DNA of 64,000 nucleotides from Litoditis marina (lineage: Eukaryota; Nematoda; Chromadorea; Rhabditida; Rhabditidae): contig OZ038440.1 of the NCBI GenBank assembly GCA_964036275.1, positions 12,561,690 to 12,625,689 on the forward strand. Reading direction: 5' to 3'. Numbering within the stretch: position 1 is the stretch's first letter; the number at the start of each line of letters is the position of its first letter. This document shows positions 1 to 40,913 of the stretch, piece after piece. A program made the translations under genes and the position numbers. The notes beneath the pieces were generated by a model that made no database searches, was not told the DNA's origin, and was given only the letters and a program-made list of their open reading frames with translations.

Positions 1-3000
1 AACTCATAATACAGTGACGAATAGTTCGGTAATCCCAGGCAAATAACAATGTATCAGCGCTATGAGTGATCTGCACGCTCAATTGTGTCTCCGACAGAGC
101 GATATCAAACTACAAAGCGGCCTAAAATGTTCTGTTTCAGAACAACCCATCGTGTCAGGTTTTTGATGACAAGATGTGGTGCACTTGCAAAGGAGACTAC
201 TGTTACAGTGATAAAACTAAGGTAAGTATCTGAACTTTTTTTTCGCTGTTAAAATGATTGCAAGTTAACTCCTTGAACAAAACTCTTCGCAATCTCATTA
301 CAATTTCAGAAAACCGTCAAAGTTTGAGTAAATGTTCTCAAAAGTTTGTTATGAGTGGCCAACAACACAAATAACAGAAAAATCGTTTTTTATGTGTTTG
401 TTCACGGTATGAGTGTGAAAAATCAATGTAACTTGAATTCTGTGCATTCTGATAAGCATCAATATCAATACTACGCTGATCTTAATCGTTCAGCTACACT
501 CGATGCGATGATAGTAAAGCTCCCCCATCGTTTTCTCGCCCCGAGCGGCTGCAAAAACATTCGCTCTGAACGATGACTAAGCGCCCCAACCCTGAGTCTC
601 CATCTTCAGTAAAAGCAACAGTTACTGAGGAGTTCTTAGTCAAGATGCAAGAAAATTATGCTTCCCTCCTAGAAGAGATCAAGTCCATCAAGAATGATCT
701 TTCTACCATGCGTTCCACCTCCATCGAAGCACCTGGCTGGTTCCAAGAGAAAATGTCAACTAATCTCAAAGGAGCGGCAACCAAGGACCCATCTATTTCT
801 TCTCTGGCCTTTTCGAGCTTCCTAATCCGTGAAGCGGCCAAAGCAACAGAGAAGAGTTTCAATGCTGTGATCGAAAAATTCGCAGATACTGTCGATCGCA
901 AAAACGACATCCATGAAGTTCTCCCATCTGACCGCAAGCTCATTGACGCCATATGTGAGAAAGGAAACCTAGTAAAACCAGTCTCATTCTCGCGCCAACC
1001 ATCGAAGAATCCCAAAAAGCCTCGAGTAATAAAGGTTCATTTCGAAACCACAAAAGACCGCAACAACTTCATTTTCAACTTCCGCAAAAACCTGCCCACC
1101 CTCCCTGATCAACCTCGTCTGCCCACTTGCCGTCGTGATATGACCGTGCCCGAACTTGATCTACTCTATTCACTGCGAAAACAATGCTATGCTGCCAATT
1201 CTCAGATGGGACAAATGAAGTACTACGTGAGAGATTTGGATATTTCCGAGCTAGCTGTTCCTCGCCCACTCAATGTACCGAATCAGTAGGTTTTGCATGG
1301 GGAGCTACCCAACCTCTCTTCTAACTCTATCCCTAGTCCTATAACTTCTCTCAAATGTCTCCTTTCGAATATAAGATCTATTGCATGTGAAACCCGTATA
1401 AAACTTGTAACCGAGCACTGTGACAGTTTGAATTTTGACCTTGTACTACTTACGGAAACTTTTCTACAGTATTCAACAATGCCAAACTCCATTACAAATT
1501 CTAACAAATACAATTGTCTCCGTTTTGACCGAGTTACTAATCAACACAAGCGCTGTGGTGGAGGCGTCCTTCTGTTCTATAAGCCTCACTTGAAAATAGT
1601 TGAAAAGGATATCTCTATTCTCAGTCATTATTCCAAGCATTTCTGTGAAATTCTCTGTTTTGACTTGCATACAAACGCTGAACAGTTTCGATTCTTTCTA
1701 GTATACCGCCCGCCTGACACCAATGCTACTCAAACAAAATTTCTTTGTAGCCATATCGAATCCTATTTTCTTCCTAATGAGAACAATGTTGTGCTTGGTG
1801 ACCTTAATTGTCCAAAAGTAGACTGGCAACTAATGACATCACCCTCCGATCAGAGTCAACGAAATTTTTTCCACTTTTGTCTAGAAAATAACATGAAACA
1901 ACTTGTGAACTTTCCTACTCATGAATCCCACAAGGGTACCAAAACTATTCTCGATGTAATTCTGTCTCAGCGAAATGATCTAATATTTAGATGTGACTCA
2001 TCCCCTCCTTTGCTCAACAGTGATCATTCATCAATAGATTTTGATTTACAGCTGTCATACGACGGCATGTCGTATCAAAATATTACACATAAAAATGTGA
2101 AGCTCATCAATTTTGCGAAAACAAACTTTGCGAAAGTAAATGAAACCATTGCGAAATTCAACTGGGAGGTACAATTCAGTCATTTCTCATCATTGCAAGG
2201 AAAGTATGATCATTTCTGTAGGCTAACGGAAGAAGTGGTCAGAGATAATACCCCTGCATGGTCAAACAAACCAAAACCCATACTACCGCTTTCTATTCGG
2301 AAATTGTTAGGTAAAAAACGAGAGGCCTACAAAACATGGCACACATCAGCTCACAGCAAAACACAATATAGGTCGATTACTAAACTCCTGAGGAAAAAGT
2401 TGACTGCATTGAGACTGAAAAACGATCAAAAAGTACTGGAATCTGGAAACGCAAGAACATTTTTCAATCACTTGCGTAGATACATGAAACCTCCAGAAAT
2501 CATTCCCCCTCTGCGCTCAGATGATGGCAAAGTTGCTTTCTCTGATCTGGAGAAATGCAATCTATTTGCAAATCAATTCTCATCTGTGTATGAGATGGAC
2601 ACTACCAGTACTTCTGACTTGGACCGATTTGAAATGCCAGTTTTTGACACTAAAATTTTTGATGTTTCATTTGAACCGCACACTGTTTACAAATACCTCA
2701 AACAACAACCATCCAAAACCACATTTTCTGCAGACTTTCTCAATCAGCTTGTTTTGAAAAAATGCGCACTATCTCTTGCATACCCCCTCTCACTCATATT
2801 CACAGAGTCCTATGAAACTGCTGTCTTGCCTAGCCAATGGAAAGTATCCTATGTCACTCCCGTGTACAAAAAGGGGCCAAAATGCACAGCGGATAACTAT
2901 AGACCTATTTCAATCACTTCAGCCGTATGCAGAGTTATGGAAAAAATGATAGCTTTTCATATCAGAACTAAATTTAATAACCGTTTTTCACCCAATCAAT

Positions 3001-6000
3001 TTGGATTTATAGGAAAAAGATCCTGCAACCTAGCGTTATTGAACTCCATTGATTTCTGGAAAAGAGAAATACATAAGAAAAAATCAGTTGATGCTATTTA
3101 TTTTGACTTCAGAAAAGCATTTGACAAAGTGTCTCATTCTAAACTTTTATTTAAACTCAAATCTTTTGGTCTAGATGACAAAATGGTTCAATGGTTCAAC
3201 AGTTTTCTCACTGACCGTACATCGTTTGTAAGAATGAATAATACTCTGTCTCAAAAATCTTTTGCCGTCACTTCTGGAGTTCTTCAAGGAACTGTCACTG
3301 GTCCTTTATTGTTCCTAATTTATATAAATGATTTATCAACTACTCTGCACAGTCGCCAAATACAACATTGTTTTTTCGCTGATGATCTAAAAATATATGG
3401 TTCTGATCCAAAAGTCATTCAAGACACCATTAACATAGTACATGATTGGTCTGTGCATTGGCGTCTTCCTCTCGCAGAAAACAAAATCAATGTACTCCAT
3501 CTTGGCGCAAAAAATGCAAGAGAAAAGTACTACATCAATGGAAAAGCAATTGAAGCAAAAGAAGTGATCAGAGATCTTGGAATCATGATTGACGAAAAGT
3601 TGAATTTTGAATCTCATATTAATCAACAGGTTGCCAAAGCTTCAGCGATTTCTACAAAAATAATTCGGTCCTTTTCTTTCTGCACCCCAAATGAGTATAT
3701 GGCATTGTTCAACACTTATGTTTCTCCTATACTTCTTTACTGTTCTGAAGTCTTCAATCCAGCGTTAAACTCTAGGTTATCCTTAGTATTAGAAGGACCA
3801 CTCAGAAGATTCACGGCTTCATCGTTTCAAAAATGCCATGTTCAGTACGATTCATACACAGATCGCTTGAACCAATTGAATGAGAAACCGTTTTATTTCA
3901 GACGTGTTAAAAATGATTTGTTACAGGCTTACAAGATAAAGTCGGGCCTATCCCAACTACCCACCGTTCCATGGAAAAACAGTAACCTCCCGAGGGATAG
4001 GCATCGACTTGTATTGTGTGATAAAATATGTGATAACAATTGGTTTTTTCCGAGAGTTGTAAAATTGTGGAATTCGATAAGTAGAGATATTGGTAGATTG
4101 GAAAATATTAATCAGTTAAAGACCTATCTAGACGTTATTGATGTAGCTGTTTTATTTGAGAACATTCCATATGCGCTTCAATAGATGATGCGAGAAATCA
4201 ACTGTTTCTCTAAAAAGCTCCCCTCAATCCGAAGATGAGAGAGTTATGCTCTCATCCCTTTGGGGACTCAGTTTATTCCTAACATCTTGTAAAACTTCTT
4301 GTTCTATGTTTTATATATGCAGGAATAAATAATAATAAAAGCTCTATTACGCTTCAAACGGAAACTTATTCTGTACATGTTGGATACGTGCGCCTTTGGC
4401 ACGTATCATCTTCTGCATTCATTGGCTAATCTCATTAGCATACACGTGGCATTCTATACTTTCTGTTCTCTACCGCATTAGCATTTCCTCACGCCTGTTT
4501 ACGTGTGTTTATACCAGTCTGCCTACGTGTTAGAAACAGTCTAGTTTATCGTCTGGCTACTGAGCGCTTGCTCAGTCGTTCATCTCTCTCTCTCACCCGT
4601 ACATATCAGGTATCAAGGTTATATTGTATTGTCTTTTATATATCCATAATAAACCTAGTATAATTAGTGTTTTGTTGTGCTATACCAAAAGGCTAACGTA
4701 TCGCCTTAAATACCTAATCGTTGTGACTTCGTGAGTACGAGGGTTACAACAGTACACGACCATCGGATTTAAAACACAATCTACTAGGAAAGTCTTGAAC
4801 TCATTTTATCTGAGAAGAGTTTTATAGTCTACAGAAGACTTTCTAACTCATGAATTGTATGTGAAGTTTATTGTTTACAGACAGACAAGTGGTGGAACTA
4901 CAAGAAAATGAAAAACAGAAACCGAAAACGTATGGAAGGATGCATAGTGAATTTGAGTGAGTGAACCTTGATAAGAATATATGTCGATGAGATAAAATCT
5001 TCTTTTTTCGATTTTTATTCAGCCTTCTTTAGGTAGGACTGTTGATAAATTTGGGGATGATACGAGTTGATACTTCCTGGTGTACCGTTTCATCTTTTCA
5101 TTGTTTCTATTTAGGTCAATAAAATTGGACATATAATTATTCCAGACAAAAACAGAAATGACGCGGAGGAAAGGAGAAAACAGCCCGGAAAAGATAAGAA
5201 GAAAAAAGGACAGCAGGGAAAGATTCAAGGAAAACAACCGCCAACTTCAAAGACTCCAGCGTCTACTGTAGCTTCGAAGAAGCCAAAGATTACGATACCT
5301 CCGAACATTCCAAAGGCCACAAAGGCTCCAGAAAAACCTAAGAATACGATATCTCCGACACGTCCAAAAATCACGACATCTCCGAAAAGTCCGAACCCTA
5401 CCAGAGCTCCGAAAACGCTGGAGATTACAGTACTTCCGAGCATTCCGAAGCCCTCAAAAGCTCCAAAAAGGCCTAAGAATACGATATCTCCGACACGTCC
5501 GAATAGAACAAACGCCCAGAAAAGTCCGAAAGTCACGAAAGCTTCAACAAGTCCAAAGCCTACGAAAGGTCCAGAACCTGTTTCGAAAGCACCACCGTCG
5601 CCTAAATCTGTCCCTGCACCAGCGAAAACACCCAAACAGACCACCAATACGAGTACTACAACAATAACAATTACTACGGTAATCACTTTTTTTTCTATCA
5701 TTCCATCACATAATCCGTAACTTAAAGTATCCTGACACCAGACCAAAAGTAATTTTCGTTATCACAGAGTTTGAAGATGGTTTCGTTGAAGTTCGAATAC
5801 GGAGTTTAATCAATAGTTGTATTTTTATATGTTATATATGTTTTCATAGCTATTGTTCAGACTCTTCTAGTCTTCAAAACCAAAAATTAACCTCATTTTC
5901 AGACCACAATACGACCTTTGCGCAAAGTGCTTCACAAGAATCCTATTCCTGGAACGTTTACGGTACACTTTCACAGATTCACGCTTGCTATTCTCTGAGC

Positions 6001-9000
6001 GAAGTACAATCATTCCTTACCATTAACTTGTTTTATTTTCACGTGAAAAATACATTATTTTGGTGGTTACGTTTGTAGTAAAAGCATGAATCTCAAAATT
6101 CCGCGTATTTGACGTACACTCTGTAGATACACGTTTCCTTTACGTTCAATTTACCTCAAAGCTTATGACGGATACCTTTGCTATATATTTCACTTTTCCG
6201 GCAATTTTTGAAAGGTAAAAACATCTCTAAATGCAAATATCATCCTCGTATGCGTATAAGGCACTACGCTGACCTGAAAATTGTATGCCCGCATAAGTGT
6301 TTTGCGCACTGACCAATTCTAGCTTGTGACAGATGTGAAGTTTGTACTGAACAAAGATGATATTCATTATACTGTTAGTCAAGTGCATAGTCGCGTGAAA
6401 CATGTTCAACACAGCTGAACTCAGAAACGTGTAATGACGAAGTGCACGATATCTCATTAGAATGCCAACTTTACCTGACTATTCAATTTACTTCTAGTAA
6501 ATTGTTCTCAGGGTGAACCTGTTGCCGACTTACTGGCAAGAATACAGGCGATGAGGGATCGCCGAGCACGAAACTCGTCCAAGAAAAAGTAAGCTCAAAT
6601 ATCACCTCTGCCGAATGATAGGTGATCTTATGTTTGTTACGAACTGGGTCGAAACGTGGAATGAAGTTGAAATTCATTTTATCATATTGATTAGTTAATT
6701 GAGATACAAAAATTGTGTTTCTAGGTTCTGAGATAAGCACATATTCAGAACACATTCTGTTGAAAACCGTCAACTGTTCTCTAATTCAGTTTGTCAATTC
6801 CCCCTGGTACATAAACTCAATGAAGTCTCCCATCATAACTTTGTTTTTTGTAGGAACTTCAGATTTTTCTCTAAGCCATCGTTGTACTCCGAGGGGTCAT
6901 AAAAGTTCACGCCTTAGAAACACGTGGTTTTTCACAACACGTTATTTCTCTCAAATGAGTTGTTCCAGAAAGGGATTCATGAAAAAGTGGGGGCCCAACG
7001 ACTGTGAGATTTGTCTTCTGCTGTGCGCCCCTTAGACAGCTACTCTCAAATGGAGCAGCTACTGCTACAAAAACCGAAAAATACTAATATACTCAAGTAT
7101 AACTGTTCATTACAAACATACAAAAGTCGTAAAATATTTTTTCAAACCTGTAAACTAGAATCTACAAATCACAGATGTTAACTCAACGTAGTCAATTGTA
7201 AAGTTTCTGGTGTTGTGCACAATGGTTTGCAGTTTTTTGTCGTTACTTCAACTCTAGGTGCTACGCTTGTCATATTATTCAACAGTTGTTCTCTCTTTCG
7301 CAGCTGTGATTTGTAGATTCTAGTTTACAGGTTTGAAAAAATATTTTACGACTTTTGTATGTTTGTAATGAACAGTTATACTTGAGTATATTAGTATTTT
7401 TCGGTTTTTGTAGCAGTAGCTGCTCCATTTGAGAGTAGCTGTCTAAGGGGCGCACAGCAGAAGACAAATCTCACAGTCGTTGGGCCCCCACTTTTTCATG
7501 AATTTTTCTCTTTTTGTATACATGCCGTAGGTATGTAGTTTAATCTGTACGGTGCAGATAAAATTGTTTTCTCAATGAACCACTTGTCAAGAATTACCAT
7601 CATTTGAAAAAATATGACGTCAACATTGCAGTTCTAAAAACTTACTTCATATGCTCTTCAGAATCCCAGAATACTTCATGTTTGAATAAAGTTTCGTCGT
7701 GAATTGACGTTTTTTAAGAATTTTTCAGCATTCGAAAAAAACATATTTTACGTCAATTTTTTTTTAAAGTTGACGTCATCTGGTCTCCAGAATCCCAGAA
7801 TACGTCACTCTTAGATTGAGTTTCACCGTTAATTGACCCTTTCTGAGATATTACCATCATTTGAAAATATATGTGACGTCAACTTTGCACTTTTCAAAAA
7901 TGACGTCATCCGAGCTCCAGAATCCTCGATGACGTCATCAGTAGAAGACTTATGTCTAAATCGATGTCAGTTTATGTCGTGGTATCATACTTCAAATTTT
8001 ACTTGAATTGGTTAGGACTGAGCTGAGTTATAACTCAATTTGATTTACCCCGACAGAGACGGCGAGAGAGTGCACGAAATGAAGAGACGCAGAGACATTT
8101 TCAAAGACCTATAACTTAATGAAAAAGAATTTTTTTCGAAAAAAAGTTTGCGCCCCCAAAGTTTGAGTGGGGTATCTATCGTGCCCCAAATTTTCAGTCA
8201 AATCGGGTCACACATAAAAATATCCCAGGAGTGCGCACCAACACACACAAACACACACACGACGGAAGTTGGCGGTCTGCATGAAGCGCATAACGTCATA
8301 ACTCGGCTCAAACACAATCAATTTCGTTCAAATTCCGAACATAGCTTGTAAATGTGCCATAGAAAATCAGAAAATCATAAAAAGTTCTGATTTGCACAAT
8401 TGGACCTTTTTGAGAGTGAACTAAAAAAATGAAAGCGCGCATTAGCCTGACCAAAGACAAATCTCGCACAGCGCTTCGCGATTCAACATCACTCTTTCTC
8501 AATTCAATTCATCATCACTATATCAACAATACTTTATCTGCTCATCAAAATATATCATTTCAATTTTTAACTTTGACGTCATATGGGCTTCATAGTGGCA
8601 GATGACGTCATTTTTCCATGAAGTTCAATCGTTACATAAGTAATCTCTGACTTTTACTGTCGTTTGAGAAAATATTTCACATTTTTGCACTTTTCGATTA
8701 TGACGTCATCCGAGCTCCAGAATCCTCGATGACGTCATCAGTAGAAGACATACATCTAAATCGATGTCTCGTGTAAGTTTTGAATTTCCTTGTTAATTGG
8801 ACATTTGCTAACTGACTAACCGTCGTTTGAAAACATATTTGACGTCAACTTTTCACTTTTCAACTATGACGTCATATGGCCTTCAGAATGGCAGATGACG
8901 TCATTTTTCCATGAAGTTCAATCGTTACATAACTGATCTCTGACTTTTACTGTCGTTTGAGAAAATATTTCACATTTTTGCACTTTTCGATTATGACGTC

Positions 9001-12000
9001 ATCCGAGCTCCAGAATCCTCGATGACGTCATCAGTAGAAGACTTACATCTAAATCGATGTCAGTTCATGTCTTGGTATCATACTTCAAATTTTACTTGAA
9101 TTGGTTAGGACTGAGCTGAGTTATAACGCGATTTGATTTACCCCGACAGAGAGGGCGAGAGAGTGCACGAAATGAAGAGACGCAGAGACATTTTCGAATA
9201 CCTATAACTTGATGAAAAATAATTTTTTTCGAAAAAAAGTTTGCGCCCCCAAGGTTTGAGTGGAACATCTATTGTGTCCCCAATTTTCAGTCAAATCGGT
9301 TCACACATAAAAATTTCCCAGGAGTGCGCACCTACACAGACACACACACACACGACGGAAGTTGGCGCTCTTGATGAAGCGAAAACGTCATAACTTTGCT
9401 CAAACTTGACCGATTTCGTTCAAATTTCGAACATAGCTTGTAAATGTGCCATAGAAAATCAGCAAATCATAAAAAGTTCTGATTTGCACAATTGGACCTT
9501 TTTGAGAGTGAACTAAAAAAATGAAAGCGCGCATTAGCCGGACCAAAGACAAATCTCGCACAGCGCTTCGCGCTGAGCGCGATTCGTTTTCAAGTGGTGG
9601 TACGTTTTTGTGATTATCGCCCTGTTGGCCTCGTTGGGTATGTTTGGAGTTGTTGCGTGGTCAGCAGCAACCAGGAAGAAGAGATGTGGGTTTTATGGAA
9701 TCAAAATAAGTTGTAGAATGTTGGCCGCAAACTCTGCATGAACTGGACATAAATAATATAGTAGAGTGAAACTTGAATCAGTGAAGAAGCATATCAGTAT
9801 TTGTATAAAAAAAGAATGTAAAGTGAGAAACGATTAGCTTTTGAGATTGAACTGCATGGAATGTAGAAAAAGAGGTCAATAACTCGAGAGGGAAATGAAA
9901 AATCTAATCTCGCGAATTTCATGAGTCAAACACACTTTGGTTTTCTACTGAGAACGAACTTGCAGCAAACAAACATTAGTTGAAACGTCCGAATATGATA
10001 ATTTCTCACCACTGTTAACTGATTCGAAACTGTTAACAGAACACAATATACTAGTGAATTGAGTATTTACGTGAAGTTAGCACTCTAATGAGGAATGGTG
10101 CACTTTGTCTTTCTCTTCACTTTTGTGAGTTCTGCTGTGTTTAACATGTTTCACGTGACTGTGCGATTGATTGACAGTATAGCTTTTTTTTTCAGATAGG
10201 TTTCAGTGTTAGCGGAATGTTCTCAAAGGGCACTTATTTCCTGATTTAGTTCGTCAGGATGATCATGAAAATTGCGAGATCAGATTTTTCATTTCCCTCT
10301 CGAGTTATTGACCTCCTTTTCTACATTCCATGCAGTTCATTCTCGAAAGCTAATCGTTTTTCACTTTACATTCGTTTTTCTATACAAATTGACCTCTTTT
10401 TCTATATTTCCGAAGGAAATAATGAATTAATAGATATGAAATGAGAACATCTAATCAATTATTGCTTTTTGAAAGTTTATTCAACTCAACAGGTGAAACT
10501 TTGTTGATTTGTAAAACATGAACTGCCTTACAAGTTTGGTTTCTTTTCTATTTCTGCCCGGAACTATATAATCAATCCGTGATTTCGGGCAGCGCACGTG
10601 TGGCACTGTCCTTTGCTTTCCTTCTCAGTGGCCATTTGGTCGAATCGGGGAAGCAGCGCATTACGCCCACTAGGCCGAGGGTTCGAATTCCTTCACAGAC
10701 CTCAATTTTGTTTTTGATCAGCCGCCGCGCCACGCGGCCGCTGTCGGAAGCCATTTTTGCGAGATAATTTCAAGAATAACTGTAGATCACTAGTCGCACA
10801 TTAAATATCGAATAGCTCAATGATTTACGATTACCTTTCCACTTTCCTCCTCTATCTCTCTCTCTCTATCAAAATCTCAAAAATCCGTTCAGGAGTTTTT
10901 GAGAAAATGGCATTAAACCACTTTTGAAAGTCCGCAATGTTGTGATCAAAAACTAATCTGCGCAGCGCTCCGCGCTGCGCGCAATTCAATATTTAATATT
11001 TATTTAACACATTCATGTACTCGACACATAGTACAATTATGAACTAATGTATCACATGGTGTTCTCTCAACTTCTTGCTTCATTGGCCGACATTGTTTTC
11101 TTGCGCTCTGAAGCATATCAGTACGCATGTCGAAATTTTGATGAAAATTGTAAATGTGAGAATACAAATATAGATAAGAATTTCATTTTCCTTCACAGGT
11201 GCGGCATATTGGAAGAAAAGAGAAGAAGAGAAAGGTTCGAAAAGTCCGATCAAGCAATCGAAGGATATGATCAAAGATGTAGTCATTGAAGTTATTCCGG
11301 AAGAGAAGATTCAAAAGAAAGGACCTCTTCATTTGCAGAAGAAGTTCATTGGAGAGATTGTTGGTTTTCGTTTTGATCTATTTTCTCACGTTTGTTCACG
11401 GTCACTCACATAACCGACTGAGTAATAATAAGTATGAATTACCATATTATGGAAGAGTACTCTTGTGATTCCCCAATCGGGCGCAGCGCGGAGCGCTGCG
11501 CAGATTAGTTTTCGTTCAGAGGTCTGCAGACATTACAATGCAGTTTATTACAATTTTCTTCAAAGCACGTCGACCATTTCTCTATATATTTGCATGAACT
11601 ACTGAAGGGCAACACGTCTACAAGAAATTGAGTTCACGTTCCAAGAAAAAATTTGTTGAGAGGAGTTAGAGGACCCAACGTCTCGCAGAAATGGCTTCCG
11701 TGCGGGGCGGCGGCGGCGGCGACAAAAGTGTCCGCCTCCTCAAATCTGGGCATAGTTTTGCTCAAAATCAACTTATTCCGAAATTTCTTACACTGTTAAA
11801 AAGCCATATAAAAGTGGAGGTATACGTATTTTCAGGTGTGTCGTAAATTTGAATATTACGTGTGAGACGGCCGAAAATGGTCTCGCAAAAAATTATGGAT
11901 AGACCGGTTTTGTGAAAATTAAAATGAAAGAGTTTAACGTGTAGTAGGAAGAAAATGAAAAAGTTTAACGTGTAGTAGGAAGACTTTTTCCAATGGAGAT

Positions 12001-13798: not shown

Positions 13799-14369
13799 AC
13801 TGAAATAATCGAAAATCAGAGGATACGAAAGGAAGAGTACAACTATTTTTATGTAATTTAAAAATTTCAATCTGTCGTAAATTCAATCAGTTCTATACCA
13901 TTGTCTTCATTCAGATTTATCAAATGTACCGTGAATAAATCTTCAACAATAGTTGGTTGTCTTCTCTGTTTTGCAGAAGAACGCGGCAGATTAATGGAAA
14001 TAAGCACCAATCGTCCACAACTACAATTACGCTATCATATAAACTTTTACAGAAATTTAGTGCCTCGCAAGGTTGTTCAAATCAGATCAAAATCAGATGT
14101 TTATTTTGTCTGTTTAGGTCTGTTCTCACCTGTTGCACTTCTTGTTCATTCGAGATACAAATAACATGTAGACCTCTCCTGTTTTCCATTCTCACTTTGC
14201 ACGTGGTTACGTGGTTCTTTCCGAAAGTAGACGTGGAGAACCACGTCTCGCATTCATGTTGAAAAGTGCCGTGGTCTGTAGTGCTTATTTCGCAATTCAA
14301 CGTGTAGAAGAATCATTTCCTTTTCGATTCTTCTCAGTGGAAGTCATAATCATTTCAACTTCATCCTGG
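13799..14369 (+). other. P1-P2 intergenic region with P1 polyadenylation signal
   Basis: An AATAAA at 13934-13939 lies 136 bases after the P1 stop and is the likely poly(A) signal. The remainder is the presumed P2 promoter. No other gene or clear regulatory motif was recognised. Confidence 0.5.
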
Positions 14370-19957: not shown

Positions 19958-20101
19958 TCAACTGAACGGTTCACGTCAAGAGAAGCCGTTCTAGTTCTTG
20001 ACGAAACTACAAATTGTATGTATACAATCATTTGCCCACTCTTATTAATCACATGTGAATCAGTTAACTATTCTTGCACCCATGAATCATATTTAGAACT
20101 G

Positions 20102-20107
20102 AATAAA
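20102..20107 (+). terminator. Probable P2 polyadenylation signal
   Basis: AATAAA lies about 145 bases after the P2 stop and is followed by T-rich sequence. Confidence 0.5.
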
Positions 20108-29600: not shown

Positions 29601-31592
29601 CAAGTTCTCAGAGGAGTTCAACTGATGACCCAACTCTCTGAGAACAACACCAAAATCGTCTTGAATTAGAGTCGAAACGATTTTGAGTGGCACCTTTCAC
29701 TGAGCACATATTTCCATGATAACATCCAACAAAAAAACACTCCAAAACGGGTTTTTGAGATTTTATTGTTTTAGGTGCAGAATACTGGAAGAAGAAAGAA
29801 GCGGAAGAAGTGGCAGATAAAAAGAAACCGTCGGCGGGCAATAACACACCGAAAAAAGCGTCGAAGGATACTGTGATGGAAGTGATTTCTGCGAGAAATA
29901 TTCAGAGAAAGGGACCTCTTCATCTGCAGAAAAAGTTCATCGGAAATACGGTGGGTTGTGCAATGACATTGGATTGTTTCAATGATAAACATAACACTAT
30001 GAAGTTCTATTCGTATAAATAAATGAAACATTCGGTAATTCTGACCCTATAATACTTGAAAAACAATTCCAAAACGGATCGTATGTTGAAATTGAAACCT
30101 ATTTACAAGGGAGCGCAGATTATACCACAAACTACCGAGAAGTTTGGGACAAGTAGGAGTTTTGTTTGCATTTTACTTCAGGTTTGTAACAGAGTCAACT
30201 GGGAAAATCAATCATAAATGTCACAATTTTCAGAAGCACACGAGGGACGACCAGAAATCAGAAAGTATTCGTGAGAAGGTGGAGTTCGTCCCAACTCTGA
30301 ATGCAGAAGTAGAAATCGGCTCCGACATTGAGATTATTGACGTGAGATTCCCTTTGTATACTGTTAGTCAATTGCACAGTCACGTGAAACATGTTAAACA
30401 CAGCATAACTAAGAAACGTGCAACGAAAAAGTGCACGATTGCTCATTAGAATGATGACTTCACGTGACCATTCAATTGACTTCTAGTATACTTTGGTGTT
30501 TTACAGAATTGTACAGATTACTGCTAAAGAAGGGTAGTATGTAGACTGTTACCGATGCTGTGTTTACGATCAGATTTCTATGGTTGGGTTATTGGTTGGT
30601 TTTCAAATCGTTGCCTACCTACAAATTTCACCCCATTGTCAAACAGTCGATCAGCAATAGTTTTCACTCAAAATACGTTTTTTGGTGCGTAAACGTTTCT
30701 CTGTTTGAAGTGCGTAGTACGTATAGTGAATTAGAACCGCCTTTTGAGTCCGAATATCCGAAAAATTCCCTTAATTGAGAAACTAGTTTTTTGTTTTTCA
30801 AATATTCCATGCGTTTCTTTATTGCAATTTTTTTTCTTTAAGTGAAATTTTAAATTTTGCATAGAACTACAAGCAAAAACAATGTTCTGATTTCAAACAC
30901 TTTGTCAGGGAATGGAATTGACAACCTATGAAGAGAGTACAATTTGCAGTCGAAGTGACAACTTCAACACTGTCAGGGTAAGCAACAATTCTAGACTCCC
31001 TTTTTATAGGTTTCACTCAGGGAAGAGCGAGTGAACATACATCTAAATGTGTTTGTAGTTTGATCCCGTCTATGTTTAGTCGTGATTAGAAAACTATGTG
31101 ATGCCGCGTTGATCAAACTACAATTCAGGTTGGGGAAAATTGTACAATTGCCCCCCTCCTCACCTTAAGTCCCCCCGTAGTACTATCACCCCCCTCCCAA
31201 CACGATTCCCTATAGAGAGGGGGGGGGGGGGGGGGGGTGATTGTAAATGGGGGGTGACTGTAAATGGGGGGTAATTGTACAATGTCGACGTTTAACAATC
31301 ACCTCCCACAATACAAAATGGGGGGTAATAGTACAACCCCGATCCCGTTTAACAATCGCCCCCCCCCCCCACTCAATCCAAACCTGCAGTAAAACAAGAC
31401 GTTGTACAATCATCCCCCTATGGGGGTGGGGGGTGATTGTACTACGGGTCGGATTCCAACCTATTTCGGCTCAAGGGGGGGGGGGGACGATAGTACAATA
31501 AATCCGTGTCTTTATGATGAACATGAGCGATTGTTTCTGGTATCAGTGTATTGTCGGAATCATAGAAAATGTTTCAGAAATCCGTCGAGTGA
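20643..31592 (+). CDS. P3: ET-module-like, Thr-rich-stalk membrane protein
   Basis: Exons: 20643-20670, 21185-21321, 21826-21909, 22245-22320, 27445-28103, 28440-28493, 28864-28922, 29234-29349 (or from 29240), 29775-29950, 30234-30341, 30909-30977, 31578-31592. About 526 residues. The signal peptide (MFLLRTVVLSYFLLEV) spans exons 1-2. Ten cysteines follow (LKC...CYCFEDHC...TC). The 220-residue stalk is Thr/Ser/Pro-rich, a mucin-like O-glycosylation target. The span is FKWWYLFIIVAFLAAFG, then AATRKKRC. The tail has QRKGPLHLQKKFIGNT, KSESIREKVEFV, IGSDIEIID and SRSDNFNTVR. The predicted C-terminus is KSVE. Compared with P1 and P4 the last exon carries a small insertion that shifts it out of the SSETLK frame. 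The 29234/29240 acceptors are tandem and both keep frame. Function unknown. Confidence 0.85.
20726..21056. repeat. G/C-run repeat with perfect hairpin in P3 intron 1
   Basis: Runs of 6-11 C or G alternate with GAAAGTAA- or TGTACAAT-like text. A perfect inverted repeat (17-base arms, 3-base loop) sits at 20974-21010 (GTTACTTTCACCCCCCA and its complement). Confidence 0.8.
22671..23836. repeat. 84-bp GC-rich minisatellite
   Basis: The unit repeats every 84 bases (GGGCATCGCTGCGCGG at 22758, 22842, 22926 and 23010). It later alternates with a shorter variant containing CCATGGGTAATGTAAGGAAT. Each unit carries two palindromic CGCTGCGCGG-type cores. Because 84 is divisible by three, long spurious ORFs appear on both strands. 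Confidence 0.95.
25638..25714 (-). other. tRNA-like Pol III fragment
   Basis: The minus strand carries GATAGCACCGCGATTG and a box B GGGTTCGATCCCG. The T-stem pairs poorly and no good anticodon stem forms. It is probably a tRNA-derived relic in the P3 intron. Confidence 0.4.
30357..30490 (+). repeat. MITE family M1, copy in P3
   Basis: TATACTGTTAGTCAATTGCA at the left end and TTCTAGTATA at the right end, with internal CACGTGAA motifs. It lies directly after the SESIREK exon of P3. Confidence 0.85.
31148..31490. repeat. G/C-run repeat in the last P3 intron
   Basis: Alternating runs of up to 18 G or 12 C with TGATTGTA and TTGTACAAT text, forming several potential hairpins. Related in style to 20726-21056 and 15012-15305. 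Confidence 0.75.
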
Positions 31593-32339
31593 AACATTGA
31601 AACGACAGAGGATGGCCGCATTCATATTGGAATTGCACAATTTTCGAAATCTTCATCTCCCTTACTTCATTTTCTGACAAATTGTGAACCAACTTTATTT
31701 GAACATTCCTCTCTCATGTTCATTATGATTTATCTATACAAATTAAATCGTTAATGTGGTGTTTCATCCTCTTGAGTATGTTCACGAAGACAACTATGAG
31801 TGAATACGAATCATTCAAAACTGCTCCAGAATGTCAAACTAACATTTGTCTGTCTTTTTGTTCGCTTTGCACCGCAATGTCCGCTCTCTGGAAATCGAAA
31901 AAATCGAAGTCTGAGTTATAACCGCGGGAAGTCTTCAGTTGTTATTTGTTATTCCACACTTTAACAGGAGCCACATTTACGGTGTCCAAGATCTAAAAAG
32001 CCATTGCAATCATATAGACCATCTGAATTGCTCAAAATCTACATGTCATCTGAGAAAAATGAATGGAACTCTTCCTTATCCGAAATTTCCAGTCAAATTT
32101 GTCGAACGCTCCATCAAACGCGGTAACAGATCAACCCTAACAGACCAACTCTACCAACATGAATGCACGTTTTTGGGACTTTTCTCAACAAGAAACGATT
32201 CCGCTATCCCAATAAAACGAGTTAGAATTGCACGAAACTTTTGAACACGTGATAAACCCGTCATTTTTCGTGCAAAATGCATCATTCTCGCTCCTTCTTC
32301 CACCTAAATCGGTTATCTTCTCTTCTCTTCTCTGCAACT
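31593..32339 (+). other. P3-P4 intergenic region
   Basis: No gene recognised. An AATAAA at 32211-32216 is the clearest poly(A)-like signal but lies 600 bases past the P3 stop. The last 100 bases are the presumed P4 promoter and contain TCTTCTCTTCTC pyrimidine text. Confidence 0.4.
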
Positions 32340-35300
32340 ATGAAATGTGCCCATATCGCGCTCATAGGTAATTTTTCACAATTTTATGCCACTAAATGTT
32401 TTGATCATCATTGAACTCACTATTATTAGTCCAGCCTAACGGCATGTTAAAGCGATACGATTATGCGGACCAATCCCGTGTTAACGAGTCCTTTGAACTG
32501 CAATTAAAATAGCGGTCGAAGCGTTAGGATTGGACTACATAATCGGACCACATAATCTTCTTTAAGGTGTCCATTTTTTTTGTTTTTAGGAAAGACAGAA
32601 ACTCTGTTCAACATGATTATTGGCTTACTTCCAACTGATATTATACTGTAATATTTTGTAGCTCTACTTTGTGGGCTTCAGGAGTATAGTTGTTTTCAAT
32701 GTCATGTTACGATTGATTTCTATATCATATTCGGGTGTTTGAGATTTGCTCATGCAGAAAAGACGTAGTTCCACTACGGTTGATAATATAGTTTGTGTAA
32801 TTATGTAAAGCTCTGAATAAAGTAATCCACAGCTAAAGTAGATGCCGTGGAAGATTATAATAATTATTGTTATACGATTTTTCACCAATTATAAATCTTG
32901 TTCCAGTTGCCTTGTTGATGAGTAACGGTTTGGGGAAGAGCACGACACGAGAACTACGCTGCACCCTTGATGGCTCTCTGTGTAAGAAGGGTTACGTGTG
33001 CAAGGTGAAGTTGTCCACGAAGTGCGAACTCAAATGTTCTCGCTCGGTGAGATAATTTCAATGTCTTATTTCAATTCCTCAAACACCTCATGAAAAACAC
33101 CACAACTTATCTACAATACTAGAAATAAATTGAATAGTCACGTGAAGTTAGCATTCTAATGAGGCATCATGCACTTTGTCAGTGCACGTTTCTGAGTTCT
33201 GCTATGTTGTCATGTTTCACGTGACCTGGCAATTGATTTTCAGTATGCTATAAGTTCACGAATAGCTCGGATTCATGAGATTCTCGTAGGTATTACCACA
33301 TTCACTACTAATTATAGCAGATCTGTCGTATCTTAGCAAACGTATCGAAATCTTTAAAGGAAGCGTGGTTGAACAGCTCCAACCGGTTTTATTCGAGGTA
33401 TTGTTACGTAGAATGTTCGGAATAGCTCTCGCTGCTTTGGTTTCTACTGAAGTTTCTTAAGTTTTTTATTAGCATATGCATATGAGTAAAGTTTTTAGTG
33501 GTTAAACGCCCAGCCATTGCTCATTCAATCATCCTGAGACAGTTCGTTCGAGTATAATTTCCTATGAGTTTTGATGATGGGATTCGCTGTGCGTACTCAG
33601 GATCATCCCGATCATAGCGTGTTTTATGAATATTATAGGCTAGTAGAATTGGAACCTGTTACCGGCAGACCGAAGAGAATGGCTTCATTAACTGCTACTG
33701 TGGGTCCGGGGATTATTGTTTCACCAATACAACGGAGGTGAGAAACTCAGAGACAAACTGAAATACTGTGTGAATACAATTCATTTCGCTTCTGGGTATT
33801 GGTATCAAATTTGTTACCTGCTGCTGTTTCGTACTGTCATACTAGTTCATTTAGAAACCTATCTTTTATAGACTGTGGCGTGAACGTTTCCCAGATACTC
33901 TCAAATTTGACATCGAAGCCCACCGCACAAACACAACCCTGACGTTCAAGAGAATTCATTGTTTAATTTTAGCCCAATTAACTCGCAACCGAAGGGATGA
34001 AACAATACTTTTTCTGTGCGGACTGTGCTGGTCGCTTCATGGTTTCCGTGATATATAAGATTTCTTTGATGATCGTACGATTAATTTGGTGTGAGGCGAA
34101 ACTGCCAGCTGGTCTGTGATCTTTGATTTACATACTCCACCATATGCTAGCAAGTAATCAACGTTGGGAAAATAACACTATAGTTCAAGTTTCAGATCAA
34201 GAGATGGAGGGAAAGAGTGAGTACGACTAACAAGCTTCGTCGTTTTGATAGCTGCATGAAGAGCGCAGGTACCTGACACAGTCTCACGAGAGGGTCCCTT
34301 CTGAGCTGAGTCTAAATACCTACTGACCCACATTTTATGCTCAAACACGGTTGTAACTATTTGACTAGAATACGATCAGGTCTTCAATCGGTTTGACCCC
34401 ACGGCTTATATGACGTCACTGCCAAACAAAGCACTTCTTTCTCACTACTCCCCAAAGTTTCATGATTCAGATTACAGCAGATTGTCAAGTTGCTCGAACG
34501 ATTGTAGGTTTCTTACATCTGAATGTTATGTTGTCTAGACATATAAAGAATGTTATTTTTGAAACCAGAAATCTTTTCAGGTGAACAAGTGAGAACACTT
34601 TTGGCGCCAGTAACCAAGAAGCCCACTACAACCAAAAAACCAATCATCACCACCCCTCGGCCTACCATTGCTACGCTCCCTCCGACTACAACTACAAAAG
34701 CAGCTACAACTACAACCACTCCAACTACAACATCAACTACAACTACAACTACAAAACCGACCACGAAGAAAACAACGTCAACAACGTCAACAACATCAAC
34801 AACGACGACCACAACTACAACCACTCCAACTACAAGTACTACAACTACAACCACTCCAACTACAACTACAACTACAACCACTCCAACTACAACTACAACC
34901 ACTCCAACTACAACTACAACCACTCCAACTACAACTACAACCACTCCAACTACAACTACAACCACTCCAACTACAACTACAACCACTCCAACTACAACTA
35001 CAACCACTCCAACTACAACTACAACTACTCCAACTACAACTACAACCACTCCAACTACAGCTACAACCACTTCAACTACAACTACAACTACTCCAACTAC
35101 AACTACAACTAAAACCACTCCAACTACAACTTCAACTACAACTACAACCACAAAACCGACTACAATAAAGACAACGTCAACAACATCAACAACGACGACC
35201 ACAACTACTCCCACTACAACCCCAACTACAACTACAACTACAAAACCGACTACAACTACAACTACAACTACAAAACCGACTACAACTACAACTACAACTA

Positions 35301-38300
35301 CAAAACCGACTACAGCTACAACCCCAACTAAAACTACCACCACTCCAACTACAACTACAACTACAAAACCGATTACAACTACAACCCCAACAACAACTAC
35401 CACCACCAGTACTCCGAGTACAACGACCGAGCCAAGTACAGCCCCTACGACCGTCGTGCCGACAGCGATTCCCACACTTTCTAGTTCGGCCACCACCACC
35501 ACTACGCCGATTGTGGCCACTACTTCCAACCCAATCGCCGCTACCACCGAGCCCAGTACCGTAACTACAACAACAGTTCCAACCTCAACTCATTCGGACT
35601 CAACCCCAATGATCCCGGTTGTAATTGGGACCACCACTACACAGGTGGTACCCACTTCTACCGACAGCATAACCACCAGTATAGCCCCGCAATCTACTAC
35701 CACGTTATCCAGAGAATCTAGTACGGAGCCGCCAATCATTCCCGTTACTGACAATGGCAATACAGCGAATACAGCCGACGCAACGACCTCAACTATGACC
35801 TCGGCTGGAGAGGTAACTTTTCGGAAGTTCACCTTAGTTAAAATAGAATGAATAGTGATACTAGTCAGTTATAACACAGTTAGTCAAGTTAAACCAACCT
35901 TAGTTATGTAAAGCTTAGAATGTTTAGCGTCAAAAAGGTAACTTATCAAATTCAACGGTTTTTTCATGATCCAGTGGCCGTATTCACCAATGTCGCGGGA
36001 AGGTAGAAAAGCTTCCCGCGCCTCTGGACCCTCCTCACCAGAACACTATTTCTCTGCTCTACCTTCCCGCGGGAAGGTATTTTTGCTGTCCGAGGATTGG
36101 TGAAACGGCCACAGGACGCTTTTGAACTCGTGCCTTTTGTATGATGGAATGTAAAATTTGAGATGAACATGTAGCCTTGAGAGGTTTTGAAAACTCTAGA
36201 ACGTCCAATCCACTTTGATTGGAACATCATAGGATTTATATTTATCTGGCTTAAAACTATAAAAACTCTGTTTGACACTCTTATAGTATATCTACAAAAG
36301 TTTCCGTTCAGTTACCCGTAAACATTATAGGAAAGTAGAATAAAAAAAGGTGTACAAGTCATTCGTACATTTAGCATGAAACAGTTCCTGTCACGGCATG
36401 GCTGACACTTTTATTTGCAGACGGCCACAAGACCACTACGTACACTCGGTGCTCAGCCTCTCATCAAAAAAGAAATTGAGGTATATTTTTCATACTATTC
36501 ATGCTGAGCATATAATAAAAGGAACTAGCTAATTCATTATTGATTGTTCGAGGTATAATATAAATGCTACGGTTCTGTCCGACGTGATTGAGTTAGGACT
36601 GTATTGGTTTTACTGTGAAAGTAAAGTTTTGTATGATTTGATAGAAAAAAAATTAAAATCTGCATAGTTCTGTGCGCCATAAACTGTATATCAGTATTAG
36701 TACGTAAATTAAAGACGACCTGACAGGAACCAAATCTCGTGTCTTGCGCTCCACGGTTAATTCAATCGCTACAACGCGAATGCGCCCCAAAAACGAAGTT
36801 TTCGAATCTTCAATGAATTGTGATTGAATAATCCACAAAATGTCGATAGATTAGTTTTTGTAGCGCAATTGCACTTGGGCGACGAAATTAACCGTGGAGC
36901 GCAAGACACGAGATTCGGTTCCTGTCAGACTATCTTCACAATATATTCTTTCAGGATGACTCGTTAGCTAGATTGGACAACAGGGTGAACGACATCAAAG
37001 CGAAGAAACAGTTAGTTAATTTTGGAGCGACGTATTTCTACATTACTTTTCGTTTAACTTTTGTTTGGTTGGGTGGAACTTTTCAGATTGTTAGTATGCC
37101 AGCTAAAGACGAAACTCAATAAAATCATCGAACCAGAGCTACAGTAGTAATTTCAAACGATTTTGTCATTACCTCACGGTCCGCATAGAGTATGCGTAAA
37201 ACTTCCTCAAAGTTACTGAAACTGAATAGAATTACTGCTGTTCTTGCCAGATTCTCAGATAATACATGTACAAATTGAAATAACACATTTGTGTTGGGTT
37301 GTTTGGAAAACTCGCTTATTTTAGTTTAGGTTTCATTGTTGTGTTTCAGAAAAGGTTTCGTGTTCAAGTGGTGGTACGCCCTCATCATCGTTGCATTTCT
37401 CGCCGCATTCGGAATGTTTGGATTCGTGGCCTGGTCGGCAGCCACGCGCAAGAAGAGAAGTGGGTATTAGAAAACAAATTACTATTATTAAATAACAAAT
37501 TTAATTACTGGAGTTTGAATTAATGTATTCAGTATTTCAGAAACATTACATAATAAAGAATAGTGATGAGGAGTCAAATATTGATTGTAGTTTGATCTCG
37601 ATACATGACATTAATTGAGAATACAACCAGAAGGCTACGAGATCAAACTACAAAACCGTGGGATAGGGCAACGCAAAATACACCGTATATGCGCACTTGA
37701 GCAAACCCACTGAAGGGCAGTCTGTTCTGGTTGGGTTGTAGTTTGATGCAAGTGGCAGTACACTGCCGTACAGCAAAACGAAAACTCGGATATGATCCCT
37801 GGGTTGGCGAATACAGTATGTCAAGTGTTTCACGCCTTTTCTGCTTTGTTTTCGATCCTCCAACTTTTTCGGATGACTATAAGACACTGAGAAGTGAGCA
37901 GTTTTAAGGAGCAGACGAACCCAAAATCGAACAACTGAATGGAATAGCTCAAAACAAAAACTACCGTGACCCCGAATACGTATTTTTTCGAAATGACTAG
38001 ATGAAATTTTCAGAAGAGGAATACTGGAAAAAGAAGAGAGCAGAAGAGAAGAAGGAAAATAAAAAAGCCAAAGTCAACATCGAACCGCAAAATATGGACA
38101 AAGATGCTGTTATGACTGTGCTTCCCGCGGAGAATATCACGAAAATAGGACCACTTCATCTTCAGAAAAAGTTCATTGGAAAAACGGTGGGTGGTTGCAC
38201 GAAAATTTGATTTTCTCTAAAAGTCTTGTAATGTGCTCCAAATAGTACCGGACTAATTTTATTTTGCATTTTATAATGGTGATTCAACTTCTGACAGAAC

Positions 38301-38340
38301 GACATTTTATATGGTTTTGGTAATGGTTGCCGTATTTTCT

Positions 38341-38386
<46 letters not shown>

Positions 38387-40913
38387 GTCATTTTTCTTCG
38401 AAACTTGATACAGTATGACCACACAACATTAAAAGAATTAAAAGAAAGAGCAGTTTTTTTTTACATTTTCAACTTTCTGACGAAAGTGTGAAAAAAAATA
38501 TATTTCGAAACCACTCACTCTAGTGTTATCATCTTATTCAGACTCCCAGCAATGACGCTCCCAAATCGGAAAGTATTCGTGACAAGGTGGAATTCGTCCA
38601 AGAGTTGAATGAGCAAGTTGATATCGGTTCCGATGTTGAAGTTATTGATGTGAGTCCAATTTCCTGAGCTGTCAGCGTATTCTGTGTTTGTTTTCCCTTG
38701 CGATTGTTCGTCTGGAGAACGCAGCGTACTATAGTCGTCATTTTGTTCATTAAAGGAGGGCGGAATGGAAAGATAGTTTAGGTACCCCGGGGTACCTAAA
38801 CTTAACGGCGCGCGCGCCAAAACAGGCTAAACATGTGAACCGTATGCAAATTAGAATCGTTAGTTCGGATTGAAATTTGTTAATATCGGTTTTTCTTGAG
38901 TAGCTCTTTCATATTAACTTTCCTTCCTGTCCCCCTTTGAGGCAGGACAATTATGTGGACCAATCCCGTGTCAACGGTCCTTTAAACTGTAATTGAAAAA
39001 TGTATTGCAGTTTAAAGGACAGAAGCGTTGGGATTGGACCACATAATCGTCATTCTTTAAGGCTACGTTCATACTTTTTTACGCTGCATCTGGCTGCAAT
39101 TGCAGTCGCTTTGCAACATTTTTGCAGTTGCTGCAAATTGCCACTGCAGTCAGATGCAGCTGCAATTTTACGCAGCGTAAAAGTATGAACAACCCAGCGT
39201 AATTTCCAACGCAATTCAAGATAATCCAAAAATTCAATTCGGAAATAGTGAATCTATATTTCAAATTGGAGTATTCAACATCTTAACTTGAAACCATTTT
39301 AGGCCAATTCTACAACTAACCAAGTTTTTAGGTCACCTAACCGGTTTTTGGTAACCCTTTTTTCAGGTTACCTCACAAGTAACCGGTAGGTAACCTGAAA
39401 CTAAAATCCGGTTACCGTACAAACAAACGGTGAAAACCACATTTTGCGTTGGAAAAGGTAACCGGTTTTTCATTTTCGGTTTCCGACCGGTTAATTATCG
39501 AAGTAACCGGAAAAAACGGTTACCAAAAAACCCGGTTACATATAGAATTCACCACAATTTCATTGACGACAACTGATATTTTATCAAATTTGGCGCCAGC
39601 GCCCGGTGCCAACAGGATTTTTTTATTTTTAGACTGATAAACTCCTAGTCAACTGCTACTACATATTGGATTTTTATTATGGCACGCCTAAAATAGTGAA
39701 AAAATATTGATAACGATAAAAAATTCATAAAAAGGGTAACTACATTGCAGTGCAGTATGGTCATGTCAATACTGCAATTTACGCTGCAGTCAGCTTAAAT
39801 TACGCTCAATTCAGCGTAAAAAAACGCTGCAGCTGGCTTAGAAAAGTATGACCAACACAACTGCAGCGTATTTTTGCAGTTGCAGTCGACTGCATTGGCG
39901 TAAAAATGAATACGCGTATTTTCGACAAGATTTACGCTGCATCTAGCTGCAACTGCAAAAAGTATGAACGAAGCCTAAGACAGAAAAGGGGTGGCAGATT
40001 GAGCGATGCGGGGCGAGCGGTCGTGTATAATTCGCCAGTAGACAAGAGAGTGCGTAGATCAAAGTTACGCAGCTGAACTGCACACTCGCCGAACCCCACC
40101 AAACATCGTACGCTGACCACAACGGTTTGACAAAACCTGTAGTTGCTGTTGGAATAGAGTGGCTCAGAAAGAATAGTAGAACATTTTTCCAGTTAAACTG
40201 TTTGAGGAGAAAGTGTGATGATGAGTTAACTTTGCCCTAAAACTTTTTTGTATACCTGAAATTCTAGAAATTAGTATTAATTTTCTACCAGGGAATGGAG
40301 CTGACGACAGTCGAGGATAGCGTCTGCAGTCGAAGTGACAACTTCAACACTGTCAGGGTGAGTTCTATTTTATACTTTTAGTCAATTGCACAGTCACGTG
40401 AAGAATGTTAAACACAGCAGAAGTCAGAAACGTGCAATGGCAAAGAGCACTATGTCTCATTAGAATGTTAACTTTACGTGATTGTTCGAATGACTTTTAG
40501 TATATTCTTATACTGTTAGTGGATTGCACAGTCATGTGAAACATGGTAAACACAGCAGAACAAAGTGTACGATGTCCCTCTTAAATGCTAGCTCTACATG
40601 ACTATCCATGCTCCAAGGCATCATTTTTCTAAGAAAGAAACCAAAAACGAACACATTGACGTACTTTAATCCGAATTTTCGAAGAACATATTTTTGTGTA
40701 ATACAAATTTTCATAAATTATGTTTATAATTCTTTTGGATATGGACTTGTACTATTTCTGTAAATTCCAAAGTTTTTTTTCACACATCAGAAAGTCATTA
40801 CCAACAGTCAGAAGATCTTTGAGTAATACTAGAGATTTAATAGATTTTTATATATTTTATTCAGTTTACTAAATTTGCAGCAATCGAACTCGGAGGCAAC
40901 ACTCAAATTCTGA
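32340..40913 (+). CDS. P4: ET-module-like, long Thr-rich mucin-stalk membrane protein
   Basis: Exons: 32340-32367, 32907-33046, 33639-33737, 34196-34268, 34581-35812, 36421-36480, 36955-37010, 37350-37459, 38014-38186, 38542-38649, 40292-40357, 40881-40913. About 725 residues with every phase matching. The signal peptide (MKCAHIALIVALLMSNG) spans exons 1-2. Ten cysteines follow (LRC...FINCYCGSGDYC...SC). A 411-residue stalk is made largely of TTTTTTP repeats, about nine of them in a 21-nt tandem, then a more complex Thr/Ser/Pro part. The span is FKWWYALIIVAFLAAFG, then AATRKKR. The tail has EEYWKKKRAEEKK, GPLHLQKKFIGKT, KSESIRDKVEFV, IGSDVEVID, SRSDNFNTVR and ends EATLKF. The protein is expected at the cell surface with an O-glycosylated stalk; ligand and signalling role are unknown. 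Confidence 0.9.
32446..32566. repeat. MITE family M2, copy in P4 intron 1
   Basis: A fold-back with GTTAAAG...CTTTAAG ends and internal ATTATGCGGACCAATCC and GACCACATAATC arms. Confidence 0.8.
33116..33246 (-). repeat. MITE family M1, copy in P4 intron 2
   Basis: Reverse orientation relative to the 30357 copy. Contains GAATAGTCACGTGAAGTTAG and TTTCACGTGACC near opposite ends. Confidence 0.8.
35972..36112. repeat. Fold-back MITE with CCCGCGGGAAGG core
   Basis: The ends CAGTGGCCGTATTCACCAAT and ATTGGTGAAACGGCCAC are inverted, with paired CGCGGGAAGGTA motifs inside. It lies in the P4 intron after the stalk exon. Confidence 0.8.
36721..36928. repeat. Fold-back MITE, about 208 bp
   Basis: The inverted ends TGACAGGAACCAAATCTCGT and ACGAGATTCGGTTCCTGTCA extend inward through GTGTCTTGCGCTCCACGG and its complement. 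It lies in a P4 intron. Confidence 0.85.
38344..38382. repeat. (CT)n microsatellite
   Basis: About 19 uninterrupted CT units in a P4 intron. Confidence 0.95.
38934..39061. repeat. MITE family M2, copy in the P4 intron after VEVID
   Basis: ATTATGTGGACCAATCCCGT and GGGATTGGACCACATAATCG arms with CTTT/TTAAGG ends. Confidence 0.85.
39064..39978. repeat. GCTGCA palindromes flanking a GGTAACC repeat
   Basis: Blocks at 39064-39190 and 39741-39978 share TTTACGCTGCA and TGCAGT palindromic text and resemble two halves of one element. Between them, 39300-39552 is built of GGTAACCGG-like motifs ending in CCCGGTTACATATAGAATTC. That end recurs in reverse at 63945-64000. Confidence 0.7.
40371..40609 (+). 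repeat. Two tandem M1 MITEs, second truncated
   Basis: A full copy at 40371-40504 is followed after four bases by a copy starting at 40509 (TATACTGTTAGTGGATTGCA) that loses its right end near 40609. They lie in the last P4 intron. Confidence 0.8.

Follow-up and report, generated by a model that had tools for sequence, protein, structure and literature searches.

Among clustered receptors with variable ectodomains and constant tails, the Hydractinia Alr complex and the vertebrate paired receptors carry immunoglobulin-like or lectin domains, and the paired receptors signal via motifs of the ITAM/ITIM type (immunoreceptor tyrosine-based activation or inhibitory motifs). They form tandem clusters with diverged ectodomains, conserved transmembrane (TM) segments and tails, and damaged copies. 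The same combination is found in four genes, P1-P4, and their relatives in the nematode Litoditis marina. P1-P4 lie in a 64,000-nucleotide stretch, hereafter the window (contig C18, OZ038440.1, positions 12561690-12625689; assembly of 261.8 Mb in 522 contigs). Unlike the Alr and paired receptors, these proteins have a different disulfide module, and no ITAM/ITIM-type motif was seen in their tails. As in clustered receptors of this kind, the tail is under stronger purifying selection than the ectodomain; ligand recognition by the ectodomain would be a further trait predicted of them.

The peptide GPLHLQKKFIG, which the preliminary description of this DNA had reported for four tails, is encoded four times on the plus strand of the window, at 11321, 18868, 29912 and 38148 (0 expected, 100 shuffles). 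GT-AG splicing around it yields four tandem paralogs of 12 coding exons each; exons were picked by eye and by homology under the GT-AG rule, without transcripts, and signal peptides and TM segments were read by eye. Exon phases follow the pattern 0-1-0-0-1-0-0-2-1-0-0-0, and the exon order and phases said to be shared by all four genes held on splicing, with the P1 exon 7/8 junction as the sole exception. P4 (32340-40913, 725 residues) and P3 (20643-31592, 526 residues) are open from ATG to stop, and P2 (14370-19957, 322 residues) is open with exon 1 at 14370-14391. P1 occupies 141 to 13797 of the window with exons 3-12, and its first two exons were located upstream of the window, in locus L044 (exon 1, 8631-8658; exon 2, 9015-9163, with five cysteines). 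With this half in place, the ten cysteines ascribed to each ectodomain could be counted in all four (cysteines 1-5 in exon 2, 6-9 in exon 3 and 10 in exon 4), and the tail motifs SESI, IGS(D/N)(V/I)E(V/I)ID and DNFNTV were likewise present in each. Judged from their sequences, P2-P4, and P1 before damage, are predicted type I single-pass membrane proteins, the order in P2-P4 being a putative signal peptide, a ten-cysteine disulfide module, a stalk that varies widely in length and composition, a short charged stretch next to the membrane, the TM helix and, inside, some 120 residues of tail. The exons in the window, all on the plus strand (+), are:

141-221, +, P1 exon 3 (module cysteines 6-9; GT-AG, phase 0-0)
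4881-4956, +, P1 exon 4 (cysteine 10)
5146-5678, +, P1 exon 5 (Pro/Lys-rich stalk)
5903-5962, +, P1 exon 6 (RPLR segment)
6512-6588, +, P1 exon 7 (charged, membrane-proximal)
9579-9685, +, P1 exon 8 (TM; open frame only, the given start being no splice site)
11199-11359, +, P1 exon 9 (GPLHLQKKFIG; unusual donor GTTGGT)
12816-12920, +, P1 exon 10 (SESI...IGSNVEIID)
13463-13528, +, P1 exon 11 (DNFNTV)
13774-13797, +, P1 exon 12 and stop
14370-14391, +, P2 exon 1 (putative signal peptide start)
14704-14855, +, P2 exon 2 (remainder of putative signal peptide, cysteines 1-5)
15794-15889, +, P2 exon 3 (cysteines 6-9)
16521-16596, +, P2 exon 4 (cysteine 10)
17131-17174, +, P2 exon 5 (vestigial stalk, 14 residues)
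17689-17748, +, P2 exon 6 (RPLR segment)
18066-18121, +, P2 exon 7
18365-18474, +, P2 exon 8 (TM)
18737-18906, +, P2 exon 9 (GPLHLQKKFIG)
19177-19284, +, P2 exon 10
19499-19567, +, P2 exon 11 (DNFNTV)
19952-19957, +, P2 exon 12 and stop
20643-20670, +, P3 exon 1 (putative signal peptide start)
21185-21321, +, P3 exon 2 (cysteines 1-5)
21826-21909, +, P3 exon 3 (cysteines 6-9)
22245-22320, +, P3 exon 4 (cysteine 10)
27445-28103, +, P3 exon 5 (Thr-rich stalk)
28440-28493, +, P3 exon 6 (RPLR segment)
28864-28922, +, P3 exon 7
29234-29349, +, P3 exon 8 (TM)
29775-29950, +, P3 exon 9 (GPLHLQKKFIG)
30234-30341, +, P3 exon 10
30909-30977, +, P3 exon 11 (DNFNTV)
31578-31592, +, P3 exon 12 and stop
32340-32367, +, P4 exon 1 (putative signal peptide start)
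32907-33046, +, P4 exon 2 (cysteines 1-5)
33639-33737, +, P4 exon 3 (cysteines 6-9)
34196-34268, +, P4 exon 4 (cysteine 10)
34581-35812, +, P4 exon 5 (Thr-rich stalk)
36421-36480, +, P4 exon 6 (RPLR segment)
36955-37010, +, P4 exon 7
37350-37459, +, P4 exon 8 (TM)
38014-38186, +, P4 exon 9 (GPLHLQKKFIG)
38542-38649, +, P4 exon 10
40292-40357, +, P4 exon 11 (DNFNTV)
40881-40913, +, P4 exon 12 and stop

The preliminary description had spoken of a four-member family. The four tandem copies stand, but the family is larger: its TM exon is present at at least 12 loci, namely P1-P4 and gene n on C18 and genes a, f, g, h, i, j and k on contig C17. Across these 12 loci the most constrained stretches were the membrane flanks, followed by three tail blocks. 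The outside flank FKWWY had a mean identity of 1.00 and the inside flank WSAATRKKR one of 0.98, while between them identity was 0.58 in the inner half of the helix and 0.45 in the outer half. The tail blocks lie on three exons and read GPxHLQKKFxG, SxSIxxxxEFVxxLNxxVxIGSDVEIID and DNFNTV.

We compared tail and ectodomain by the proportions of nonsynonymous (pN) and synonymous (pS) differences. Among P1-P4, pN was 0.50-0.59 in the modules, 0.22-0.31 in the tail (exons 9-11) and 0.12-0.24 in the TM exon, while pS was nowhere below 0.58, whether in the module, the TM exon or the tail as a whole. The comparison was extended to ten genes (45 pairs), taking the membrane-proximal or only module and exons 9-10 as the tail. 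Median pN was 0.54 for the module, 0.28 for the tail and 0.19 for the TM exon, at median pS of 0.75, 0.74 and 0.62, respectively; furthermore, module pN exceeded tail pN in all 45 pairs, and module pS exceeded tail pS in 20 of the 45. A lower tail pN at similar pS indicates purifying selection on the tail, and the contrast between constrained tail and diverging ectodomain drawn earlier was thus borne out: tail and TM exon are under purifying selection and the module is under weaker constraint. In the sole unsaturated comparison, that of genes a and k (13 pairs of exons from collinear cassettes, restricted to exons located in both genes), the ratio of nonsynonymous to synonymous substitution rates (dN/dS) was 0.30 (95% 0.21-0.41) for the ectodomain (390 codons; dS 1.03, 0.78-1.46), 0.08 (0.03-0.17) for the cytoplasmic part (116 codons; dS 0.30, 0.17-0.49) and 0.09 (0-0.29) for the TM exon (36 codons; dS 0.34, 0.13-0.73). 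Equal constraint on tail and ectodomain, which the preliminary description had named as the result that would speak against it, was therefore not what we found.

We consider it somewhat more probable than its alternatives combined (about 0.55) that these are recognition or adhesion receptors with variable ectodomains and a shared intracellular partner. The modules would touch different extracellular partners, whether ligands, matrix or other cells, and the stalk would set the height of the module above the membrane, both varying according to what is met outside; the inner side of the membrane segment, the membrane flanks and the three tail blocks would dock one common intracellular partner. 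Several observations weigh against this interpretation. The ectodomain dN/dS, which the preliminary description had expected to be high, is well below 1 and points to weaker purifying selection, with no sign in it of positive selection or ligand-driven rapid change; ligand-binding and matrix-binding modules would also look alike at the sequence level. Constraint on the inner parts is patchy, as exons 6-7 approach the module in P1-P4 (pN 0.40-0.55, RPLR excepted) and reach a dN/dS of 0.62 (95% 0.27-1.41) between a and k, and the middle of exon 9 varies. The tail lacks a known signalling unit: among 11 tails Pfam gave at best DUF2514 (E = 0.00055), which fell short of its cut-off, and NCBIfam at best a match with E = 0.0025. 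In an alignment of 11 tails, read by eye, there was no conserved YxxI/L, the sole invariant tyrosine lying in YW(K/R). A C-terminal PDZ ligand was also considered and dropped, as the last residues differ between members. Finally, similarity on the inside is partly recent, given the a-k tail dS of 0.30 against 1.03 in the ectodomain and a TM-exon pS of 0.15-0.30 against 0.63-0.86 for the module in the pairs g-h, g-i and h-i, so that the a-k tail and the g, h and i TM exons have been homogenised or are of more recent ancestry.

These low synonymous divergences, in the tail and TM exon of a-k and the TM exon of the three other pairs, are what would be expected if neighbouring genes had converted one another and the constancy of the tail were due chiefly to this and not to functional constraint. 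Most pairs, however, combine a high, module-like tail pS with half the module pN, all 45 agreeing, and the P1-P4 tails have a pS of 0.58-0.77 at their low pN. The data thus already oppose gene conversion as the whole explanation, which we regard as extremely improbable, though it may still have contributed in close pairs.

The ectodomains differ in the number as well as the sequence of their modules. Five of the seven C17 relatives carry arrays of exon 2-3-4 cassettes, each entered and left in phase 1; counted by hand in the examined DNA, complete and partial cassettes numbered 6 and 2 in k, 3 and 3 in a, 4 and 1 in h, 3 and 2 in g, and 3 and 1 in i. The modules of a are collinear with those of k, and those of h with those of i. 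Genes j and n have a single module each, incomplete in j, and no module was found in the 10 kb examined for gene f. All 24 complete modules fit C-x(3-7)-C-x(5-8)-C-x(7-11)-C-x3-C-x(7-11)-C-x(4-12)-C-x-C-x(4,5)-C-x(22-29)-C, with a mean identity of 27%, or 17% without the cysteines. Incomplete cassettes were excluded from this set (2 of 8 in k, 3 of 6 in a, 2 of 5 in g, 1 of 5 in h, 1 of 4 in i and the only one in j). Exons had been located by eye or through their cysteine patterns, and in modules k1, k6 and i2 one or two exons had their ends trimmed by eye, so the constancy of the cysteine number is in part a product of this selection. Serial splicing of the cassettes is the ordinary reading. 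Three-exon cassettes of phase 1-1 can nevertheless be skipped or joined in frame, so many ectodomains per gene would be possible; a choice among cassettes of the Dscam or protocadherin kind, by which single genes would supply the animal with a varied set of receptors that all have the same tail, is in our estimate very unlikely.

Variation in the stalk bears on the main rival to a recognition role. The stalk, encoded by exon 5, is wholly different among P1 (177 residues, Pro/Lys-rich, with 19% of each), P2 (vestigial), P3 (219 residues, 41% Thr, 6 N-glycosylation sequons) and P4 (410 residues, 59% Thr, a coding tandem repeat with 14 PTTTTTT units). Such Thr-rich and Pro/Lys-rich stalks, the P4 repeat and the Ser/Thr-rich exon 5 candidates of j and n fit structural adaptors that would tie the apical extracellular matrix, the cuticle or the glycocalyx to the cell cortex. 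In such adaptors the mucin-like stalks would act as spacers and the tail would hold on to the cytoskeleton or the cortex, with neither recognition nor signalling. A juxtamembrane stretch that is both basic and acidic, and a tail with no signalling motif seen, would suit them as well. Against this, exon 5 is only 12-14 residues in P2 and the array genes a and k (12-13 in the latter two), and an adaptor role by itself does not call for so many diverged modules. We hold the adaptor explanation to be possible but distinctly the less probable one. Transmembrane mucins offer a similar parallel, with the Thr-rich stalks of P3 and P4, a single TM segment and a tail, but differ in that the P1 stalk is Pro/Lys-rich, that of P2 is nearly absent, and the conserved parts here are the TM flanks and tail and not the mucin region; Pfam gave no match to a mucin SEA domain.

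Database comparisons of the module gave no convincing Pfam or NCBIfam match, none attaining its cut-off where one is shown. In the 18 of the 24 modules searched, the best Pfam E-value was 0.01, and the three-finger models UPAR_LY6, Activin_recp and Toxin_TOLIP were unmatched at E <= 1; there was no Pfam match to the nematode ET module, and weak matches to Antimicrobial25 and gamma-thionin both missed the cut-offs shown. In PDB, the P3 module matched only CD177, a Ly6/uPAR protein (whole-sequence E = 0.018; best single stretch, residues 12-31, E = 5.8), the P1 module matched Kit alone (E = 0.96) and no three-finger protein, and the best match of an 18-module profile was weak, a scorpion alpha-toxin (E = 0.24). 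With hhalign, the module profile was aligned to three-finger, cysteine-stabilised alpha-beta (CS-alpha-beta) and EGF profiles, with reversed and 30 column-shuffled controls. The three-finger score (against six domains of that fold) was 8.3, compared to 10.7 reversed and a shuffle mean of 8.5, and the CS-alpha-beta score was 14.7, compared to 9.9 reversed and a maximum of 16.6 among the 30 shuffles, so these controls support neither fold.

Particular features of the module resemble both folds. Tandem domain arrays occur in the Ly6/uPAR superfamily, which includes the multi-domain CD177 and uPAR and the activin-type receptors. As in that superfamily, P1-P4 have LxC near the module start, and the CxC-x(4,5)-C that closes the module core resembles the CCxxDxCN ending of such proteins; unlike there, the family has a tenth cysteine in a C-terminal segment of its own, a single-pass TM segment and a conserved tail without a kinase. 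The C..CxxxC..C..CxC order of CS-alpha-beta proteins (defensins and scorpion toxins) is present in 24 of 24 modules, partly built in by the cysteine-based picking, but the module has four further cysteines, and its C-x-V-x-C, which follows a DG/NG turn, seems closer to a beta hairpin than to a helix. On balance the module leans tentatively, and with low confidence, towards a three-finger fold.

When the genome was searched with two tails, that of P4 had 50 matches and that of gene a 56, all of them on C17 and C18; as the search scores the best candidates only, these counts are lower bounds. Tail exons alone were found in three equal-score copies near C17:4.73 Mb, in one at 4.746 Mb and in others at 6.576, 14.84 and 16.97 Mb. 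At C17:4.727-4.746 Mb (loci L032 and L033) tail exons 9-11 are repeated in 5-6-kb units in which no TM or module exon was found, and both units of L032 contain a satellite of about 168 bp. The P4 ectodomain (E <= 10) found nothing in the genome beyond the three exons that encode it, showing that single-module searches miss other modules. Neither the P2 protein nor P3 residues 330-526 had a homologous protein at E <= 10. An exon 9 profile, scored on the 7988 candidates sharing most words, found a single ENA protein of 104 residues, which shares stretches including an intron with gene k and was thus taken to be from the same species. There was no relative among viral or GTDB contigs, nor one from another species in any searched collection; as these may hold few or no nematodes, the lack of matches is no evidence of novelty. 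Five tail and TM motif strings did not occur in the main texts of the searched literature.

The copy at C17:16.97 Mb (L042, 9101-9310, reverse complement) consists of exons 10, 11 and 12 of an a- or k-like gene, fused without introns. It is close to gene a, with 93% identity over exons 10-11, which are fused at the modelled junctions, and exon 12 matched by eye; it starts within two bases of exon 10, has an internal stop and is followed by a stretch that contains GAATAAA, with no poly(A) tract in the 500 bases examined. A processed copy truncated at its 5' end would explain it, as would some other RNA-mediated loss of introns. The fusion supports two modelled junctions, and implies transcription of a relative near gene a in the germline or early embryo. 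This would fit gamete or germline surface proteins whose changing disulfide modules serve sperm-egg or sperm-competition recognition, as would the duplication of fertilisation proteins, three-finger ones included, which is the subject of PMC8830517. One intron-less copy is, however, weak evidence for function, and we consider a gamete role unlikely.

The exception in exon phase noted for P1 lies at its TM exon. None of the eight AGs tested in 9481-9620 is a usable in-frame acceptor for this exon: four keep the phase but lead into a stop, and the other four are off phase. P1 is thus unable to join its membrane exon in frame under simple GT-AG splicing, unless another exon lies upstream of this interval. 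A GC-rich palindrome-like repeat with an in-frame stop (9555-9578) abuts the exon on its 5' side. Its core is also present at 8463 and 61772; stretches related to it lie at 10955, 11493 and 14468. P1 looks damaged, and since its tail is conserved like the others (P1/P4 tail pN 0.23), either this happened recently, as we would expect, or the assembly is in error at that place. The third intron of P1 also holds a LINE-like (long interspersed nuclear element) element at 570-4184, with endonuclease and reverse-transcriptase domains found in 1290-4184, and the fourth intron of P3 a satellite-like array at 22700-23860. Adjoining P4 on the minus strand is an exon of a tubulin-tyrosine-ligase-like gene (44892-45254, Pfam TTL); also on that strand, a Gag-like retroelement open reading frame occupies 46781-48964, of which 47600-48964 matches DUF7083 and an aspartyl protease; a zinc knuckle falls just short of its cut-off.

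Altogether, membrane flanks and tail blocks that are kept while the module, its number and the stalk vary point to one intracellular partner of many surface proteins, for which the three tail blocks could be used as baits. Should these sequences be on record in model nematodes as gene numbers only, this would be the first description of the family.

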